Assembly (NCBI RefSeq): GCF_025717555.1
Contig: NZ_JAJIRP010000009.1
Coordinates: 124,001-188,000 of the forward strand
DNA: 64,000 nucleotides
Direction: 5' to 3'
From: Paucibacter sp. B2R-40
GTDB taxonomy: Bacteria; Pseudomonadota; Gammaproteobacteria; Burkholderiales; Burkholderiaceae_C
Shown: positions 14,854 through 22,323 of the stretch, piece by piece
How positions within the stretch are numbered: the first letter of the stretch is position 1
How the letters are laid out: every line of letters begins with the position of its first letter
Translations under genes and position numbers: made by a program
The notes under the pieces: generated by a model
What the model saw: the letters and a program-made list of their open reading frames with translations, nothing else
The model's database searches: none
What the model was told of the DNA's origin: nothing

Positions 14854-15660
14854 TCAGCCGCGCCGGCGATGAATCGCGCCAGCGCCGATCGCCAGCAGGC
14901 CCAGGCCCATCAAGGCCCAGCTGCTTGGTTCAGGCACTGCCGTGATGTTGTAGGTGATGTCCTGCTCGAAGGTCCATTGGCCCGCAAACGGTCCGGTCGG
15001 CGAAGAATTGACGGTCCAGCGCACTTGATGATTGCCTGCGGACAGTCCCTCCATCGCGATCAGATAGCCATCTGAAATGGCCGGGAAGATGCCGGCGGGC
15101 CAGCCGCCCAGATTGTCTGCGCCGACATGCAAAGGGAACAAGTCGGTTGATTGGCGGAATTGGCCCAGCGACGAATAGCCGGCTGGCAGCAAGGCAGGCG
15201 CACCGTCGACGGTGAGCGACATGCTGTTGATCGTGCCCAATACATGGCCGGCAATGAAGCGAAGGTCAGCTTCGGTCTCGTTGGCATCGGGCCAGCCGGT
15301 GACGACCTGAAGATTCAGCAACAGGGTCTGGTCGGGGCGCACCGTCACGTTGCGAACCACCGGGGTCGGGGTGAAGGATCCGGGCAGAAAGAAGAATCCT
15401 CCTTGGTCGCCAAGCTGTGTGTTGGCGCCAGGCCCATCGAGGAGGGGGTTGGTGGCGGCGGGAATCGAGACCCACCATTGACTGAACTGGGCCAACCTGA
15501 AACGCTGGTCGTAGCCGGCAACGAGGGCGTCGGGGGCGATCAGCTGCTGCGCCAGCGAGGGGCCGGCCGCGATGGCAAGCAGGGCGGCCGCAGCCAGCGG
15601 GAGCAGTTGGCGCCTGACGCCGCTAGCTGCGTGGCCATGTTGTGTTGCTACGTTTGACAT
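14854..15660 (-). CDS. PEP-CTERM exported protein, tandem paralogue A
   Basis: 268 residues from ATG 15660, which has AAAGGA eight bases upstream. A signal peptide ends near 'GPSLAQQ'. The mature protein starts with QQLIAPD, continues through ATNPLLDGPGANTQLGDQGG and PVVRNVTVRPDQTL, and ends in a classical PEP-CTERM tag: Val-Pro-Glu-Pro-Ser, a hydrophobic helix, His-Arg-Arg-Arg-Gly. Exosortase-type processing and surface or matrix export are expected from the tag (family knowledge). It is paralogous along its whole length to the next gene upstream (15717-16532), so the pair arose by tandem duplication. Function unknown. Confidence 0.82.
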   Translation of the reverse strand: MSNVATQHGHAASGVRRQLLPLAAAALLAIAAGPSLAQQLIAPDALVAGYDQRFRLAQFSQWWVSIPAATNPLLDGPGANTQLGDQGGFFFLPGSFTPTPVVRNVTVRPDQTLLLNLQVVTGWPDANETEADLRFIAGHVLGTINSMSLTVDGAPALLPAGYSSLGQFRQSTDLFPLHVGADNLGGWPAGIFPAISDGYLIAMEGLSAGNHQVRWTVNSSPTGPFAGQWTFEQDITYNITAVPEPSSWALMGLGLLAIGAGAIHRRRG

Positions 15661-15716
15661 GTCGTACATCCTTTGAATTGAGGTTCGAAGATAGTTCTCA
15701 GCCTGTGCCGCAAAGC

Positions 15717-16532
15717 TCACGCGCGCCTGCGATGAATCGCGCCGGCCCCGATGGCCAGCAGGCCCAGGCCCATCAAGGCCCAGGTGCCAGGCTCGGGCAC
15801 GGCGTTGATGTTGTAGGTGACGTCGTACGAGGTCGGGGGGCCGCCGGCGTAGGGGCCGGTGGAGACAAAGGTCGAGGTGAAGTGCAGCTGATGTTGGCCG
15901 GCCGACAAGCCTTCCAAGGCAAAGGTGTAGCCCAAGGTGACGGCTGGAAAGGTGCCCGTTGGGTAGCCCCACATGCTTTCAATAATGCCGCCGGGCGGCA
16001 AGCTCAGTGGGAACAGCGGGCTCGCCTGCAGGAAGGGGTCCAGTGAATTGATGCCATTGGGCAACAGAGCCGGCGCACCATCGACCGTGACCGTTAGATT
16101 GCTTACATCGCCCAGCGCATAGGCCGCGTGCGTGCGCATATCGGCCTCGGTGTAAACCTGGGCGTCCGCCCAGTAAATGATGGTGACCGGGCTGAACACC
16201 AAGGTCTGGTCGGTTCGCACCGTCACATTGCGTACAACGGGATCTTGGGAAAACGTCGAGGCGAGAAAGAAGTAGCTGCCCTGGTCGCCCTGCGCGGTAT
16301 GGGCGCCGGTCATGTCGAGTATGGGGTTGGTCGCCGGTAGGATGGAGAATTCCCATTGCGCCATTTGGGCCGATAAGAAGCTCTGGCTGTAGCCGCCGAC
16401 CATGGTGTCGGGTGCAATCAGTTGCTGCGCCCGCAAAGGCACGGCCGCGATGGCAAGGATGGTGGCTGCTGCGAGTGGGGCCAATTGCCGCGCGATGGCG
16501 GCGGTGGCGTGGCGGGTGAGTGGTTTTGACAT
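15717..16532 (-). CDS. PEP-CTERM exported protein, tandem paralogue B
   Basis: 271 residues from ATG 16532, with GGGAG seven bases upstream. It has the same architecture as its downstream neighbour: a signal peptide ending around 'PLRAQQ', then the shared motifs QQLIAPD, ATNPILDMTGAHTAQGDQGS, PVVRNVTVRTDQTL and TVDGAPALLP. The C-terminal PEP-CTERM tag is Val-Pro-Glu-Pro-Gly-Thr-Trp-Ala-Leu followed by a helix and His-Arg-Arg-Arg-Ala. The 56-base gap between the two genes suggests an operon. Both may be matrix or surface proteins with beta-sandwich-like bodies (inference). No enzyme motif was seen. Confidence 0.82.
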   Translation of the reverse strand: MSKPLTRHATAAIARQLAPLAAATILAIAAVPLRAQQLIAPDTMVGGYSQSFLSAQMAQWEFSILPATNPILDMTGAHTAQGDQGSYFFLASTFSQDPVVRNVTVRTDQTLVFSPVTIIYWADAQVYTEADMRTHAAYALGDVSNLTVTVDGAPALLPNGINSLDPFLQASPLFPLSLPPGGIIESMWGYPTGTFPAVTLGYTFALEGLSAGQHQLHFTSTFVSTGPYAGGPPTSYDVTYNINAVPEPGTWALMGLGLLAIGAGAIHRRRA

Positions 16533-16742
16533 GGCGCATCTCCCAAGGATTGACAAAGGAAGGCAGGCGGCTTGCCTGCCAAGTGCACGGCGTCGGTTTG
16601 CCGTGCGGCCAATGTCCTACTTGCTGGGGTCGGCGTCCTTAAGGCGCCTGAAACAGGCCTGAAAAGTTCTGAAACTGCACGGGCAAGGCAGTAGTTAGGG
16701 GGCAGCGTCTCTATCATCGCCAGCAAGCGGTCTTGCGACGAG

Positions 16743-16766
16743 CAACTTGCAACTTGCAACTTGCAA
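16743..16766. repeat. CAACTTG heptamer, three tandem copies plus CAA
   Basis: Three exact copies of CAACTTG occupy 16743-16763, followed by a partial CAA. The array lies 30-54 bases before the hybrid-kinase ATG at 16797, in or near its leader. A slippage-prone tract there could affect expression, but the unit is seven bases and lies outside the coding frame chosen. Confidence 0.7.
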
Positions 16767-16796
16767 AAAAGGCGGCCGAGCATTGAGGAGTCAGCG

Positions 16797-19775
16797 ATGG
16801 TGATGACCCAGACTTACCCGGACGCCGGGCTATCGAGCAATGCAGTTGTCCCGCCGTCTGGCGCCGGCGCGCGGCGCTGGAAATGGATATTGCTCGGCCT
16901 TTGCCTGTGCTGCGCCGGCATGCGGCTGTGGGCAATGGCTTATCTGGAGCGCTCGGTCGTGCCTGCGGCGGCGGGCGGCATGGGCGTGGTCATGAAGGGC
17001 CCCTTGAGTGGCCCCCATTGGATGACGACGGTGGTGAGCATGGAGCCCGAAGCCGACCTTGCCCGCCAGGGCGTCAAGGCGGGTGATCGCCTGACCTTTG
17101 ACCAGATAGGCGACCGTTGGCGCATCAAGGGCGTGGATGAGTTGATCCCCGTCACGATCGAGTCCAACGGTGAATGGCGCCAGCTATGGGTCCGCACCGA
17201 GCCTCAACCAGATCGCGTTGACGCCGTGGGAGTCATGCGCGAGTTCAGCGGCTTGGTCGAGAGCTGGCTGGCCTTGACGATTGCGGCGGTGCTGAGTTGG
17301 CGGCGTTCGGACAGTCGGGCCATGCGTGCCTTGGCGATCGCCTTGGCGCTCTACAGCATTGCCGACGTGGGCATGCGTTTGCCGGCAGGCACGGTGCAGG
17401 CTTTCATGATGTTCTACGGCTCCTTTGTGAATACCTTGCTCATCGCGGCAAGCTATCTGTACTTCGCCATCGCCTATCCGGATGAGCAAAGCCGGTTCTC
17501 GCGAACCGGGGTCCGGCGCGGCTTCGCCCTGCTGGTTTGCCTAGGTTTGGCGGTCAATGTGTTCGAGCTGGTCTTTCATTTTCGGCTCACGCCATTCGAG
17601 CCACCGTATTGGAAACTGGTCTTCGAGCGACTGGGCGGCAGCTTTGTCTATTTGGTCGACATCGCGACCTTGGTGTTTTTGTGGCTGGCTTGGCGGCGCG
17701 CCAGCGGTGTGGCGAGGTACCGCGCCGCTTGGATAGGCGTTTGCGTCGCTGTCATGGTGAGTGGCTCGATTGTTTTCGTCATCATGGGCAACTTGCCGGG
17801 GCGCACGTTGCAGCGCGAGTTGGTCATGGATTTCATTCAAATTGCATTGGCGATGCTGTCTATGCTGGGCTTGGCGTACGCCGTGCTGCGCCACCGCGTG
17901 TTCGGTTTTGGCTTCGCGCTCAACCGTGCCTTGGTCTGGGGCTTGGTGCTGGCGGTTCTGGTGGCCGGTGTGGCTACGCTGCGCATGATTGGGAGCCGCT
18001 GGCCGCTGCTGGCCGACCCGCGCATTGCGGCCGGCGTGACTGTGCCGCTGGCGCTGGTGTTCTCCAGCACGGTGCCGCGCTTGCGAGTCTGGGCCGATGA
18101 CATCGTGCAGCGGCTTTTCTATCGCAACTGGCGCAGCAAGGAAGAAGCGCTGTGGACGGCGGCGACGGCGGCGGTCGGCCTGCAAGGGCAGGACGTGCTG
18201 TTAAGCCATTACTTGCGCGCCATCAAGCGATTTGCAGGCGGGGCCGAGGTGTCGGTTTTCCGCGTGCAGACAGCGGCGCGGACTCCGGCTTGCGCTCGCT
18301 TGGCCGCCACCGCAGCCACGGCGCCCGAGCTTTTGAGTATGGAGGCAGCCGATTTGCGCAGCATCCAAGCGCACCGCCTGCCGGCTGCCTTGTCGGCGCT
18401 GGTCGGTGTGGACGGTTTGGCGGTGCCGATCAAACACCGCGATCAATTGACCGGTTTCTTGCTGCTGCACACCCGGCCCGAAGGCGCACCCTATCGCCCC
18501 GACGAGGTGCGTGCGTTGGCCCGCGCCACCGACATGATGCAAGAGGATTTGCAGGCCGACGCCGGGCGCACCCAGGCGCAGCTGCTGGAGCAAAAACTCG
18601 CTGCCGAGTTGCAAGCGCGAGAGGCCGCGCAGTCGGCCAATGCGGCCAAGAGCGCTTTTCTGGCCACCGTCAGCCACGAGATCCGCACGCCTATGAATGG
18701 CGTGATCGGCATGAGCGGGCTGCTGCTCAATTCGCAGCTGACCGAGGAGCAGCGCGACAACGCGCAAACCATCCGCGACTCGGCCGAGGCGCTGCTGAGC
18801 ATCATCAATGACGTGCTCGATTTCTCCAAGATCGAGGCCGGCCGGATGGAGCTGGAGGACCAGCCCTTTGAGCTGCGCGAATGCGTGCGCCTGGCGCTCG
18901 ATCTGGTGAGCGTGCGCGCCAGCCAAAAAGGCTTGCGCCTGAGCTGCCATTTCGAGGCCAATGTGCCCGAGGCGGTGCAGGGCGACGCCGCCCATCTGCG
19001 CCAGATCCTGCTCAATCTGCTCAGCAATGCGCTCAAGTTCACCGACAAGGGTGAAGTCGTATTGAGTGTGTCGGCGCCCAGCGAGGGGCGGCTGGCGTTT
19101 GAGGTGCGCGACACCGGCATCGGCCTCAGCGCCGAGGGCAGCGCGCGCTTGTTCCAGCGTTTCAGCCAGGCCGACAGCAGCATCAACAGCCGCTATGGCG
19201 GCAGCGGCCTGGGCCTGGCCATCAGCAAACAATTGGCCGAACTGATGGGCGGCAGCATGGCTGTGGACAGCGCCGGGCCGGGGCAGGGCAGCCGCTTCTA
19301 CTTTGACATCCAGGCGCGTGCGGTGGCACTGGCGCCGCGACCCCAGCGGGTGGTGCCAGCGCCAACCGAGTTGGACCCCAATATGGCCGCGCGCCATCCG
19401 CTGCGCATCCTCTTGGCCGAGGACAACGGCGTCAACCAAAAGCTCGGCCTGCGCCTGCTGGAACAGATGGGCTACCGAGCCGACCTGGCCAGCAATGGGC
19501 GCGAGGCGGTGCAGAGTGTCGAGCGCCAGACTTACGATCTGGTGCTGATGGATGTGCGCATGCCCGAGATGGACGGGCTGCAGGCTAGCCGCGCCATCAC
19601 GGGGCGCTGGCCGCCGGGCCAGCGCCCGCGCATCGTCGCGATGACGGCCAACGCCCTCAACGGCGACCGGCCACAATGCCTGGCGGCGGGCATGGATGAG
19701 CACTTGAGCAAGCCCTTGCGCGTCGAGGCCTTGATCGTCGAGCTGAGCGCCACTGCCCGTAGAGTTGATGCGTAA
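16797..19775 (+). CDS. PDZ-like / multi-TM hybrid sensor histidine kinase
   Basis: About 992 residues from ATG 16797 (GAGGAG six bases upstream). Order of parts: first helix about 28-50; an exported PDZ-like segment about 55-135 ([23 protein letters not shown] pattern); some eight further helices to about 420; a GAF-like segment about 440-590; a HisKA domain with the phosphoacceptor in SHEIRTP (His627); a catalytic ATPase domain about 720-845 ([14 protein letters not shown]); and a receiver domain about 865-985 with Asp919 in [13 protein letters not shown]. The kinase lacks its own Hpt domain; the next gene supplies one. It heads a three-gene phosphorelay. Signal unknown; the PDZ-like part suggests a peptide or envelope cue (inference). 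Confidence 0.9.
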
Positions 19776-19791
19776 TGTCGAGACAAACACC

Positions 19792-20139
19792 ATGAACCAG
19801 CCCTTGCTAGAACCGCTTGTCTTCGAAGCCCTGCAGGCCAATGCGGGCGCTGACTTTGTGCTGCAACTGCTGGAGGCCTTCGCCGAGGAGGCGCCGCTGC
19901 TGGCGCAGCAGCTGCGCGAGGCGGCGGCGGGCGGTGACAGCACTCAATTCGAGACCATTGCGCACAGCTTGAAGAGCAATGGCGTTACCTTTGGTGCGGC
20001 GCGCTTGGCCGAACTGGCCGGCCGGCTGGAATGCCATGGCCTGGCGGCGGGCGGCGCGGCCATCAGCGCTGCGCTCGATGAGTTGACGGCCGAGATCGCG
20101 GCCGCCTTGCTGGCTCTGCAAGCGGCGGCGCGGCTATGA
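19792..20139 (+). CDS. Hpt phosphotransfer protein
   Basis: A 115-residue four-helix histidine phosphotransfer protein. The motif [25 protein letters not shown] carries the phospho-accepting His and its conserved surroundings. It should relay phosphate from the receiver of the hybrid kinase upstream to the receiver of the gene downstream. An alternative ATG at 19768 overlaps the kinase stop by eight bases (ATGCGTAA) and would allow translational coupling; neither start has a strong ribosome-binding site. The 3' end overlaps the next gene by ATGA. Confidence 0.88.
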
Positions 20140-21491
20140 GCGGCAGCCCCGTTACCAAACTCGTGTTCGGCCATGTCGAGCTGCGCTTGGGCGAACGCCG
20201 CGTGCTGGTCGATGGCCAAACCGTTGCCCTGGGCAGCCGTAGCTTTGATCTGCTCAAGGCCCTGGTTAACAAGCGCGAGCGCGTTGTCAGCAAGGAAGAA
20301 TTGCTCGATGAGGTGTGGCCGGGCTTGGTCGTCGAGGAGAACAATCTGCAAGTGCAGATTTCGGGTCTGCGCCGCGTGCTGGGCGCCGCGGCGATTGCGA
20401 CCGTGCCGGGCCTGGGCTACCAATTTACGCTGCCTTTGGGTCCGGCCGAAACTGCCGAAACAGCAGAAGCGACCGACAAAAGGCAACCGGCTCAACAAGC
20501 GCAACAAAAAACGCTGGCTTTGGCGGGCAGTCTGTCAGCGCGCGTGCTGGTGGCCGATGACAACCGGGTCAACCGGCTGCTGCTGTGCCGCTCGCTGGAG
20601 CTGATGGGGCATCAGGTCAGCGCGGCTGCGAATGGCCGGGCAGCACTTGAGATGCTCAGGCAGCAGCCGTTTGATTTGCTGCTGCTCGATCTGGCGATGC
20701 CCGAGCTGGATGGCTTTGGCTTGCTGCAAGAGCGGGCCGGCGACGCCGCGCTGTGCGAGGTGGCGGTGATCGTGACCAGCGCCTTGGGCGGCGTGGCGCC
20801 AGTGGCGCGCTGCATCGAGCTGGGGGTGGAAGACTTTCTGCACAAGCCGGTTGATCCCTGGTTGCTCAAGGCGCGCGTGGATGCCAGCTTGAACGCCAAG
20901 CTGCTGCGTGATCAGCAGCGCGACGCGTTGCGCCGCTTGATGCCGGCCGGCCCCAGCGCGGCCCGCTGCTTGCCCGATGTGACCGTCTTGGTCGCCGGCC
21001 TGCATGGGCTGGCCGCGCTGGACCTGTCGCCCGATCAGATGCAAGAGCTGCTGAGCGACTGGTGCACCTTGATGTTTGATGCCATCGATGGGCGTGGCGG
21101 CGAGCTCGCGCAGTTCAGTGGCGATGGCTTGTTGGCCTTGTTCAGCGAGCCGCAGGCGGCTGTGCAAGCAGCGCAGGAGATGGGCGATCTGATGCGCGTG
21201 TTCAATGAAGAGCGGCTGATCGCGGAATTGGCGACGGTCAACTTGGGCTGCGGCTTGGCGCGCGGCCAGGTCTTGGCCTGCTCGGCCGCCACCAGCAGCC
21301 GCGCGGCCTATGCCTGCATAGGCGCGCCGGTTGCTCAGGCGCAGCGCTTGGCGGCGGCGTGCTCGCTAGGAACGGCGGCGGGAGAGGCCGTATTTCTGAT
21401 GGATGCCGCCACGCGGGCCGGGCTGAGCGCCGAGTTCGAGATCATTGCCGTAGCGCAGAGCGGGGCGGAAGCTGCTTACTCCCTGCTCTAG
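20136..21491 (+). CDS. response regulator: winged helix - receiver - degenerate class III cyclase domain
   Basis: A 451-residue protein with an unusual domain order. Residues about 8-100 form an OmpR/CadC-type winged helix (DEVWPGLVVEENNLQVQIS ... GLGYQF). Residues about 131-250 form a receiver with DD, phospho-Asp185, T/S and Lys all present. Residues about 265-451 resemble an adenylate/guanylate cyclase domain. In the cyclase part, by visual alignment, the first metal Asp is Gly288, the base-recognising Lys is Gln326 and the transition-state Asn is Ala400; the second metal Asp330 and Arg404 remain. Catalysis is therefore unlikely, and the domain may sense a nucleotide or dimerise (inference). 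The start overlaps the Hpt stop by four bases, so the three genes form one relay. Confidence 0.85.
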   Translation: MSGSPVTKLVFGHVELRLGERRVLVDGQTVALGSRSFDLLKALVNKRERVVSKEELLDEVWPGLVVEENNLQVQISGLRRVLGAAAIATVPGLGYQFTLPLGPAETAETAEATDKRQPAQQAQQKTLALAGSLSARVLVADDNRVNRLLLCRSLELMGHQVSAAANGRAALEMLRQQPFDLLLLDLAMPELDGFGLLQERAGDAALCEVAVIVTSALGGVAPVARCIELGVEDFLHKPVDPWLLKARVDASLNAKLLRDQQRDALRRLMPAGPSAARCLPDVTVLVAGLHGLAALDLSPDQMQELLSDWCTLMFDAIDGRGGELAQFSGDGLLALFSEPQAAVQAAQEMGDLMRVFNEERLIAELATVNLGCGLARGQVLACSAATSSRAAYACIGAPVAQAQRLAAACSLGTAAGEAVFLMDAATRAGLSAEFEIIAVAQSGAEAAYSLL

Positions 21492-21567: not shown

Positions 21568-22323
21568 ATGAAGATGCATCCCTTTCGCTTCGGTGTCGGC
21601 TTGGCTTTGGCGCTCACCGCAGTCGCCGCCGGTGCGGCTGATTTACCAACATCTGTCGGCCCACGTCAAAACCTCTGGGTCGAAGTCCGCTGGGTGGACA
21701 GTGCGGTCAGCGGCGCAGCAATGGCGGCGATACGCGATGGCTCGGTCGTGGTCGGCACGGCGGGCTCGGTGTCCTCGCGAGGCAGTGTCGGCTTCAACAC
21801 GCAGCGGCGTGACGAGCAGCAGGTGCAGCGCTTGTTGGTGCTCAACGGCGATCAGGCTTCGGTGCAATTGACAGAAACGACGCCCGTGCAGTGGCTGGAC
21901 TTTGGCGTGCAGTTTGATGCCGCTGCGGGTGGGGCAGGTGGGGCTGGCGGGGCGACCCCCCTGCCAGCGGCCGGAGGAGCCAATTCGAATGTCAACCGGG
22001 GCTGGGCCGTGCCAAGGCAGGGCGTCACCGAGCAGACCCAAGGCTTCACTGTCACGCCGCATTGGCCGGGTGGACAACAGCCGGTGCGGGTGGAGCTCAG
22101 GGCGCAGGGCAGCAGCGGCTCCGGTAACTTGCTGCAAGGCCAATCTCAGGCTCAAACACAGGCGCAAGTCCTCAGCACCGTCTCGGTGGGCCTAGGCCAA
22201 TGGCTGACCGTGGCTCGCAGCGGCGCGGCCACGCAGCGCCAGGAGCGCGGCGTGATCAGCAGCCGCAGCGCCGAGACGCAGAGGACGCGGGAGTTGCAGT
22301 TGCGCGTCGATCTGGCTCCCTGA
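21568..22323 (+). CDS. exported protein with secretin-like features
   Basis: 251 residues with a signal peptide ending near 'AAGAADLP'. The body alternates short beta-type segments with a Gly/Ala-rich linker at about 130-145 (AAAGGAGGAGGATPLPAAGG). Phrases such as 'RLLVLNGDQASVQLTETTPVQW' and 'LGQWLTVARSG' resemble parts of a secretin-like domain in other Proteobacteria, but the length is far too short for a secretin. It stands 76 bases after the phosphorelay operon. It is probably periplasmic or outer-membrane associated; function unknown. Confidence 0.6.
   Translation: MKMHPFRFGVGLALALTAVAAGAADLPTSVGPRQNLWVEVRWVDSAVSGAAMAAIRDGSVVVGTAGSVSSRGSVGFNTQRRDEQQVQRLLVLNGDQASVQLTETTPVQWLDFGVQFDAAAGGAGGAGGATPLPAAGGANSNVNRGWAVPRQGVTEQTQGFTVTPHWPGGQQPVRVELRAQGSSGSGNLLQGQSQAQTQAQVLSTVSVGLGQWLTVARSGAATQRQERGVISSRSAETQRTRELQLRVDLAP

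Follow-up and report, generated by a model that had tools for sequence, protein, structure and literature searches.

Signal pathways are thought to evolve through module swapping. In class III cyclases, the enzymes that make up the output of receiver-adenylate cyclase regulators, the base-recognition positions are usually Lys and Asp, and in heterodimeric cyclases one half gives both metal-binding Asp residues while the other half gives the base residue, the Asn, and the Arg. OmpR-family winged helices (OmpR, PhoB, and PmrA) bind in tandem to direct repeats that lie about one helical turn apart. Receiver-adenylate cyclase regulators are listed, under the name CheY-AC, as a messenger-making class by Galperin (2005; PMC1183210). 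The order winged helix, receiver, cyclase is not described in the titles or abstract starts found in the open-licence PMC literature.

Here, we analyze a regulator with that order, encoded in a 64,000-nucleotide stretch of Paucibacter sp. B2R-40 DNA (hereafter the window), which is part of a 295-kb contig in a 5.6-Mb genome. Comparison of its sequence with those of its relatives makes it reasonably likely that this response regulator exchanged an enzyme output for a DNA-binding one.

Results

Domain organization and fold of the regulator

A first-pass annotation, made from the letters of the DNA, had described a winged helix, a complete receiver, and a cyclase-like C terminus in one chain, and the ORF, the Pfam domains, and the fold all confirm this architecture (Table 1). 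Pfam Trans_reg_C covers residues 27-97 (E 4.8e-17), in keeping with the DNA-binding output that had been predicted, and WPGLVVEENNLQVQ in the winged helix is invariant across 14 aligned sequences. Because this winged helix comes before the receiver (residues 137-248) and not after it, as in the receiver-first OmpR/PhoB order, the protein is not a standard OmpR regulator. The cyclase domain directly follows the receiver, which is the arrangement of receiver-cyclases. Asp142, Asp185, Thr214, and Lys237 are all four present in each of the 17 winged-helix rows of a 47-row alignment, and by these residues the receiver should be phosphorylatable. NCBIfam, PDB-sequence, and own-genome searches with the regulator returned matches mainly to the receiver and the winged helix, the latter matching at least 13 other places in the genome.

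Table 1. Features of the regulator operon and its surroundings, in window coordinates
Feature	Position	Strand	Evidence and remarks
Second PEP-CTERM gene, paralog of the 15717..16556 gene	14854..15972	-	TIGR02595 over cut-off, cross-matches; start uncertain
Divergent PEP-CTERM surface protein gene	15717..16556	-	NCBIfam TIGR02595 (PEP_CTERM) over cut-off; likely ATG 16532
Candidate operator, CTTAA-CTGAA-CTGAA-CTGAA direct repeats, spacing 10, 11, and 10 bp	16638..16673	+	8-locus alignment, scans with controls
Hybrid histidine kinase: 7TM sensor region, HisKA, HATPase, receiver	16803..19775	+	Pfam; start uncertain, ATG 16797 or 16803
Hpt phosphotransfer protein	19777..20139	+	Pfam Hpt, E 8.2e-09; start uncertain, ORF from 19765
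Response regulator, winged helix - receiver - pseudo-cyclase	20136..21491	+	ATG start, 451 aa; aligned with 13 relatives
N-terminal OmpR/PhoB-type winged helix, residues 9-100	20160..20435	+	Pfam Trans_reg_C, alignment
Receiver domain, residues 137-248	20544..20879	+	Pfam Response_reg, E 2.2e-21; structure match, Z 22
Degenerate class III cyclase domain, residues 263-451	20922..21488	+	Residue table, fold

No Pfam cyclase model matches the window regulator at E ≤ 1. Seven of the 17 same-order proteins (L044 and L046-L051) reach the Guanylate_cyc cut-off, the other 10, including the window's, being below it. The cyclase part was folded separately, since the structure look-up with the whole model returned mostly receivers. 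Modeled alone with AlphaFold2, residues 258-451 gave a mean pLDDT of 81.8 and a pTM of 0.78, and the best PDB matches of this model are class III cyclases, led by CyaC of Spirulina platensis (2bw7/1wc1; Foldseek E 1.3e-12). VIA-align against 2bw7_B gave a Z of 20.3, with an rmsd of 2.7 over 170 residues. The superposition on a class III cyclase that had been suggested as a check has thus turned up the cyclase fold, and as judged from the Pfam matches of the relatives and from the model we regard this fold as real. The whole-chain model (mean pLDDT 79.6, pTM 0.41) is confident only inside domains. Residues 105-132, which link the winged helix to the receiver, are predicted without confidence, and a single helix (residues 241-268) enters the third domain.

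One same-order protein, L046 (4987-7446), has an extra cyclase-like domain fused in frame ahead of the winged helix, giving the order cyclase - winged helix - receiver - dead cyclase. By eye, the metal Asp residues, Asn, and Arg of the extra domain are apparently intact.

Active-site residues

For the residue table we aligned 47 receiver-plus-cyclase rows, of which 17 have a winged helix and 30 lack one; L178 and L180, which are the same genes as L040 and L050, were excluded from it and from the tree. In the window regulator, Gly288, Ala397, and Ala400 replace Asp, Asp, and Asn, with Asp330 and Arg404 retained. The pseudo-cyclase reading of the first-pass annotation is borne out across the group: the first metal Asp, the base Asp (position 397), and the transition-state Asn (position 400) are absent in 17/17 winged-helix rows. 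At the first of these positions the 17 rows have Gly, Arg, Cys, or Lys (Arg in 11), while 14 rows retain Asp330 and 11 retain Arg404. Rows that lack the winged helix have both metal Asp residues and the Asn in 30/30, the Arg in 29/30, and the base Asp in 25/30.

Gly288, Gln326, Asp330, Ala400, and Arg404 had all been read correctly beforehand, but counting Gln326 as the loss of a base-recognizing Lys was mistaken. Because Gln occupies position 326 in 27/30 catalytically intact receiver-cyclase rows, it was inherited rather than lost, and we rejected it as a mark of decay. The loss of the base Asp at 397 comes in addition to those named earlier. Most intact receiver-cyclases (L183-L205) have Gln and Asp at the two base-recognition positions. 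The window regulator thus has the class III fold, but neither the two metal Asp residues nor the transition-state pair of Asn and Arg (Ala400) is complete. Since two defining residue sets fail, it is not among the cyclase enzymes, and it also lacks the intact active site of receiver-cyclases.

Constraint on the cyclase domain

Selective constraint was assessed as dN/dS by Nei-Gojobori counts. In seven winged-helix protein pairs, which overlap and were hand-chosen as part of all possible pairs, the cyclase part has values of 0.24-0.43, compared with 0.05-0.14 in the winged helix and 0.07-0.19 in the receiver. In eight enzyme-type pairs, likewise hand-chosen, the cyclase part has values of 0.07-0.25. 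The cyclase part exceeds the receiver in 7/7 winged-helix pairs and in 4/8 enzyme-type pairs. Since its dN/dS is raised yet stays below 1, the dead cyclase domain appears, from these counts, to be under relaxed but not absent constraint.

To this we added an entropy comparison of 17 winged-helix with 23 enzyme-type rows (L190b, L204b, and L206-L210 left out) at 17 pocket and P-loop positions, chosen from class III motifs. In the winged-helix clade, mean entropy is 1.60 at these positions versus 1.46 in the rest of the domain, and 74% of random sets of 17 positions reach a value as low. In the 23 enzyme-type rows the mean is 0.10, and 0/10,000 random sets are as low. Because the pocket positions of the winged-helix clade vary as much as the remainder of the domain does, the remaining constraint is more likely to act on the fold than on nucleotide binding.

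The kinase-Hpt operon

The kinase of the window has Pfam domains HisKA_7TM, HisKA, HATPase_c, and Response_reg. Kinase and Hpt matches lie beside the regulator in all 17 winged-helix operons, a gene context that agrees with the phosphorelay predicted earlier. The enzyme-type loci L183-L205 have the Hpt in 23/23 and the kinase in 22/23, a count that includes L189, where only the receiver end of the kinase is visible at a contig end; in L190 the contig ends before the kinase. The 30 rows without a winged helix come from 28 loci, 23 of which have a matching Hpt gene. L206-L209 have no Hpt match beside the regulator, and L210 has the receiver part of a kinase but no Hpt match.

Two side observations concern gene content. 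At L190 (1204-3555), two adjacent receiver-cyclase ORFs form a tandem, and the receiver of the second one is incomplete. Behind the regulator of the window, a 251-aa ORF with a signal-like start (21568-22323, + strand) gave no match to Pfam at E 1 or to NCBIfam at 0.1; relatives of it are found at the same place in L039 and L040.

Relatives and phylogeny

We found 17 same-order proteins, the window's included. Its closest full-length relatives are in Paucibacter (L039 and L040, 84 and 73% identical over the best segment). In the family survey, nine of 399 genomes have a match across the three domains, and all nine were judged to be among the 17 rows, all of which are without the first metal Asp. 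In the class survey (369 genomes), a three-domain match occurs only in the window's own genome among the candidates scored. Both tallies are lower bounds, the best four candidates having been scored per genome. Receiver-cyclases also occur outside the family (L149 and L150), and intact and winged-helix forms of the operon are found side by side in related bacteria, even in one genome.

A tree of receiver plus cyclase was computed with IQ-TREE from 45 rows, leaving out L190b and L210, which have an incomplete receiver. The 17 winged-helix rows form one clade (support 100/100), with a single label change in 200/200 bootstrap trees. This clade falls with receiver-cyclases in a set of 40 rows (99/99); support drops to 83/89 and 89/82 at the inner forks that unite it with 12-13 of these. 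Because the 17 proteins form a single clade among enzyme-like ones, a single rewiring is probable, in which a phosphorelay with an enzyme as its output became a transcriptional one. We rooted the tree at its midpoint, and this placement, the broader distribution of the enzyme form, and the decay of the active site lead us to infer that the change ran from the enzyme to the winged-helix form.

A repeat array upstream of the kinase gene

We aligned the intergenic region that separates the kinase gene from the divergent PEP-CTERM gene in eight loci (the window, L039-L044, and L179). Many of the invariant columns fall within one stretch, which in the window consists of four CTKAA units. All eight loci have the four-unit array with 0-1 mismatch, and L042, L043, and L044 have a second, inverted copy. 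This array upstream of the kinase is new here.

We then scanned for clusters of three CTKAA units at a spacing of 10-12 bp, allowing up to one mismatch. Such clusters occur in 13/17 winged-helix operons, with 16 of them in 18 stretches that total 220 kb; in two of the 17 operons (L048 and L181) the kinase frame runs off the end of the stretch scanned. The 23 enzyme-type operons, covered by 33 stretches (328 kb), have none; the kinase promoter was located in only some of these stretches, and L189, L190, and L205 end at contig ends. None occur in five shuffles of each set or elsewhere in the window. L206-L210 were covered by other array scans, outside this test. Outside the discovery set the array is found in five operons only (L045, L046, L047, L049, and L050). 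In L045 it lies ∼500 bp upstream of the kinase ORF, and in L050 (stretch L301) ∼500 bp beyond the start of the open kinase frame. L051 has no array. A form with two mismatches occurs in L182, but one of equal quality occurs in the enzyme-type L202, and 1/50 shuffles reaches each of them. A matrix built from eleven arrays scores 25-28 in L045, L046, and L047, 19.7 in L182, and 12.2 in L301, whereas the enzyme-type L183-L205 and L291-L300 score at most 10.4; an unrelated match (19.8) lies inside another ORF at L206, a locus with neither a kinase nor an Hpt alongside. A promoter scan of 16450-16850 found no sigma-70-like site. All these counts come from one clade, so the association of winged helix, dead cyclase, and repeat array amounts to one event.

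Seven other winged-helix loci (L039-L044 and L179) have at least one PEP-CTERM relative next to the kinase, and the window's genome has 102 PEP-CTERM matches above the cut-off (107 listed, 5 below). Eighty of the 102, each taken as the ORF with ∼450 bp upstream (107 kb in all), contain no cluster and have a best matrix score of 7.9, versus 51.3 at the real site; the window's two are among the other 22. The array is therefore not a general PEP-CTERM element, and we rejected a general PEP-CTERM regulon. The absence of the array from these 80 genes likewise leads us to predict local targets, namely the regulator's own operon and the adjacent surface-protein genes, the divergent gene being a possible second target. 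A PEP-CTERM gene has been reported in connection with floc formation of an Aquincola strain (PMC9850573).

Discussion

We propose the following scenario. In the ancestor, a hybrid kinase and a free-standing Hpt protein would have signaled to a receiver-cyclase regulator. A winged helix would have been gained at the N terminus of this regulator in one event, and class III cyclase catalysis lost at about the same time. In the present protein, autophosphorylation of the kinase would pass a phosphoryl group to the kinase's own receiver, then to Hpt, and from there to Asp185 of the regulator. The phosphorylated regulator may pair through its receiver and through the helix and cyclase-fold domain behind it, and the flexibly tethered winged helices may then sit in tandem on the CTKAA direct repeats in the gap between the kinase and divergent PEP-CTERM genes, so that the regulator would control its own operon and the PEP-CTERM surface-protein pair. 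Most likely, the regulator works like an OmpR regulator. The first-pass annotation had included neither the proposed derivation from an enzyme-type regulator in this kind of operon nor the promoter array.

What the dead cyclase domain does can be read in several ways, among which the sequence comparisons lead us to favor a dimerizing or spacer role. The domain may act as a dimer switch, as the first-pass annotation suggested. The nucleotide sensor suggested earlier, binding without turnover and thereby gating DNA binding, would fit the preserved fold and the frequent retention of Asp330 and Arg404, but the pocket and P-loop positions are no better conserved than the rest of the domain, and the first metal Asp, base Asp, and Asn are missing throughout. 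With conservation of the nucleotide pocket gone, we consider this reading very unlikely. It is somewhat less improbable, though still unlikely, that the domain is a decaying remnant without a role and that the protein works as a winged helix plus receiver. The faster evolution of this part compared with the other two domains, the scattering of most catalytic positions, and the shortened C-terminal ends of L039, L040, and L045 all point that way. Against it stand the presence of the domain in all 17 proteins, dN/dS values well below 1, and the invariance of Gly322, Gly329, Phe336, Gly373, Gly377, and Gly396 in 14 aligned sequences. Least probable is that the domain forms half of a heterodimeric cyclase, its active site completed by another cyclase chain as in animal cyclases. 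Three genomes (G357, G174, and G252) do have the operon plus an intact receiver-cyclase, and Asp330 is mostly retained, but all 17 proteins lack one metal Asp as well as the Asn, which leaves neither half-site whole.

As for the array, it is likely, from its distribution, to be the operator of the winged-helix regulator. It might instead be the operator of a different OmpR-type regulator, with the window regulator acting elsewhere, since a position next to the operon does not identify the binder and the genome offers the other winged-helix matches noted above. We give this alternative a low probability: the array tracks the winged-helix form of the operon (13/17 operons versus 0/33 enzyme-form stretches), and its near-helical-turn spacing suits tandem winged helices.

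Most likely, then, the regulator controls its own genes in some water and soil bacteria, and its ancestor probably made a cyclic-nucleotide messenger. A stronger proposal, which we regard as evenly balanced, is that the whole phosphorelay switched in one step from second-messenger synthesis to transcription, gaining a DNA-binding domain and a matching operator and turning the cyclase into a non-catalytic dimerization module, with kinase and Hpt unchanged. This would be one way for a signal pathway to exchange its output. The before and after forms occur in the same type of operon, the dead enzyme domain is still attached, a candidate operator is known, and the two forms can be produced in parallel, so that the role of the dead cyclase and the path from enzyme regulator to transcription factor become directly testable.

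Among known systems, the receiver-adenylate cyclase regulators share with the window regulator a receiver followed by a class III cyclase domain, and the closest relatives of this type are from the same bacterial family and have the same kinase-Hpt operon. The window regulator differs in its added N-terminal winged helix and in the loss of the first metal Asp, base Asp, and Asn. With CyaC of Spirulina and other class III cyclases it has the C-terminal fold in common, but not an intact active site. OmpR/PhoB regulators are built from the same receiver and winged-helix families, and the candidate direct-repeat operator with its helical-turn spacing is a further likeness, but in the window regulator the winged helix comes first and there is a third domain. 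Winged helix - STAND/AAA regulators, some with TPR (L053, L057, L061, and L094), resemble it in the winged helix alone (60-68% identity over ∼90-100 residues), with no receiver or cyclase domain found at E 0.001. Finally, a protein of Pseudomonas indica (L089, 5848-6966) is another case of a winged helix ahead of a complete response regulator: a related winged helix precedes a complete receiver, but the output behind that receiver is a LuxR-type HTH.
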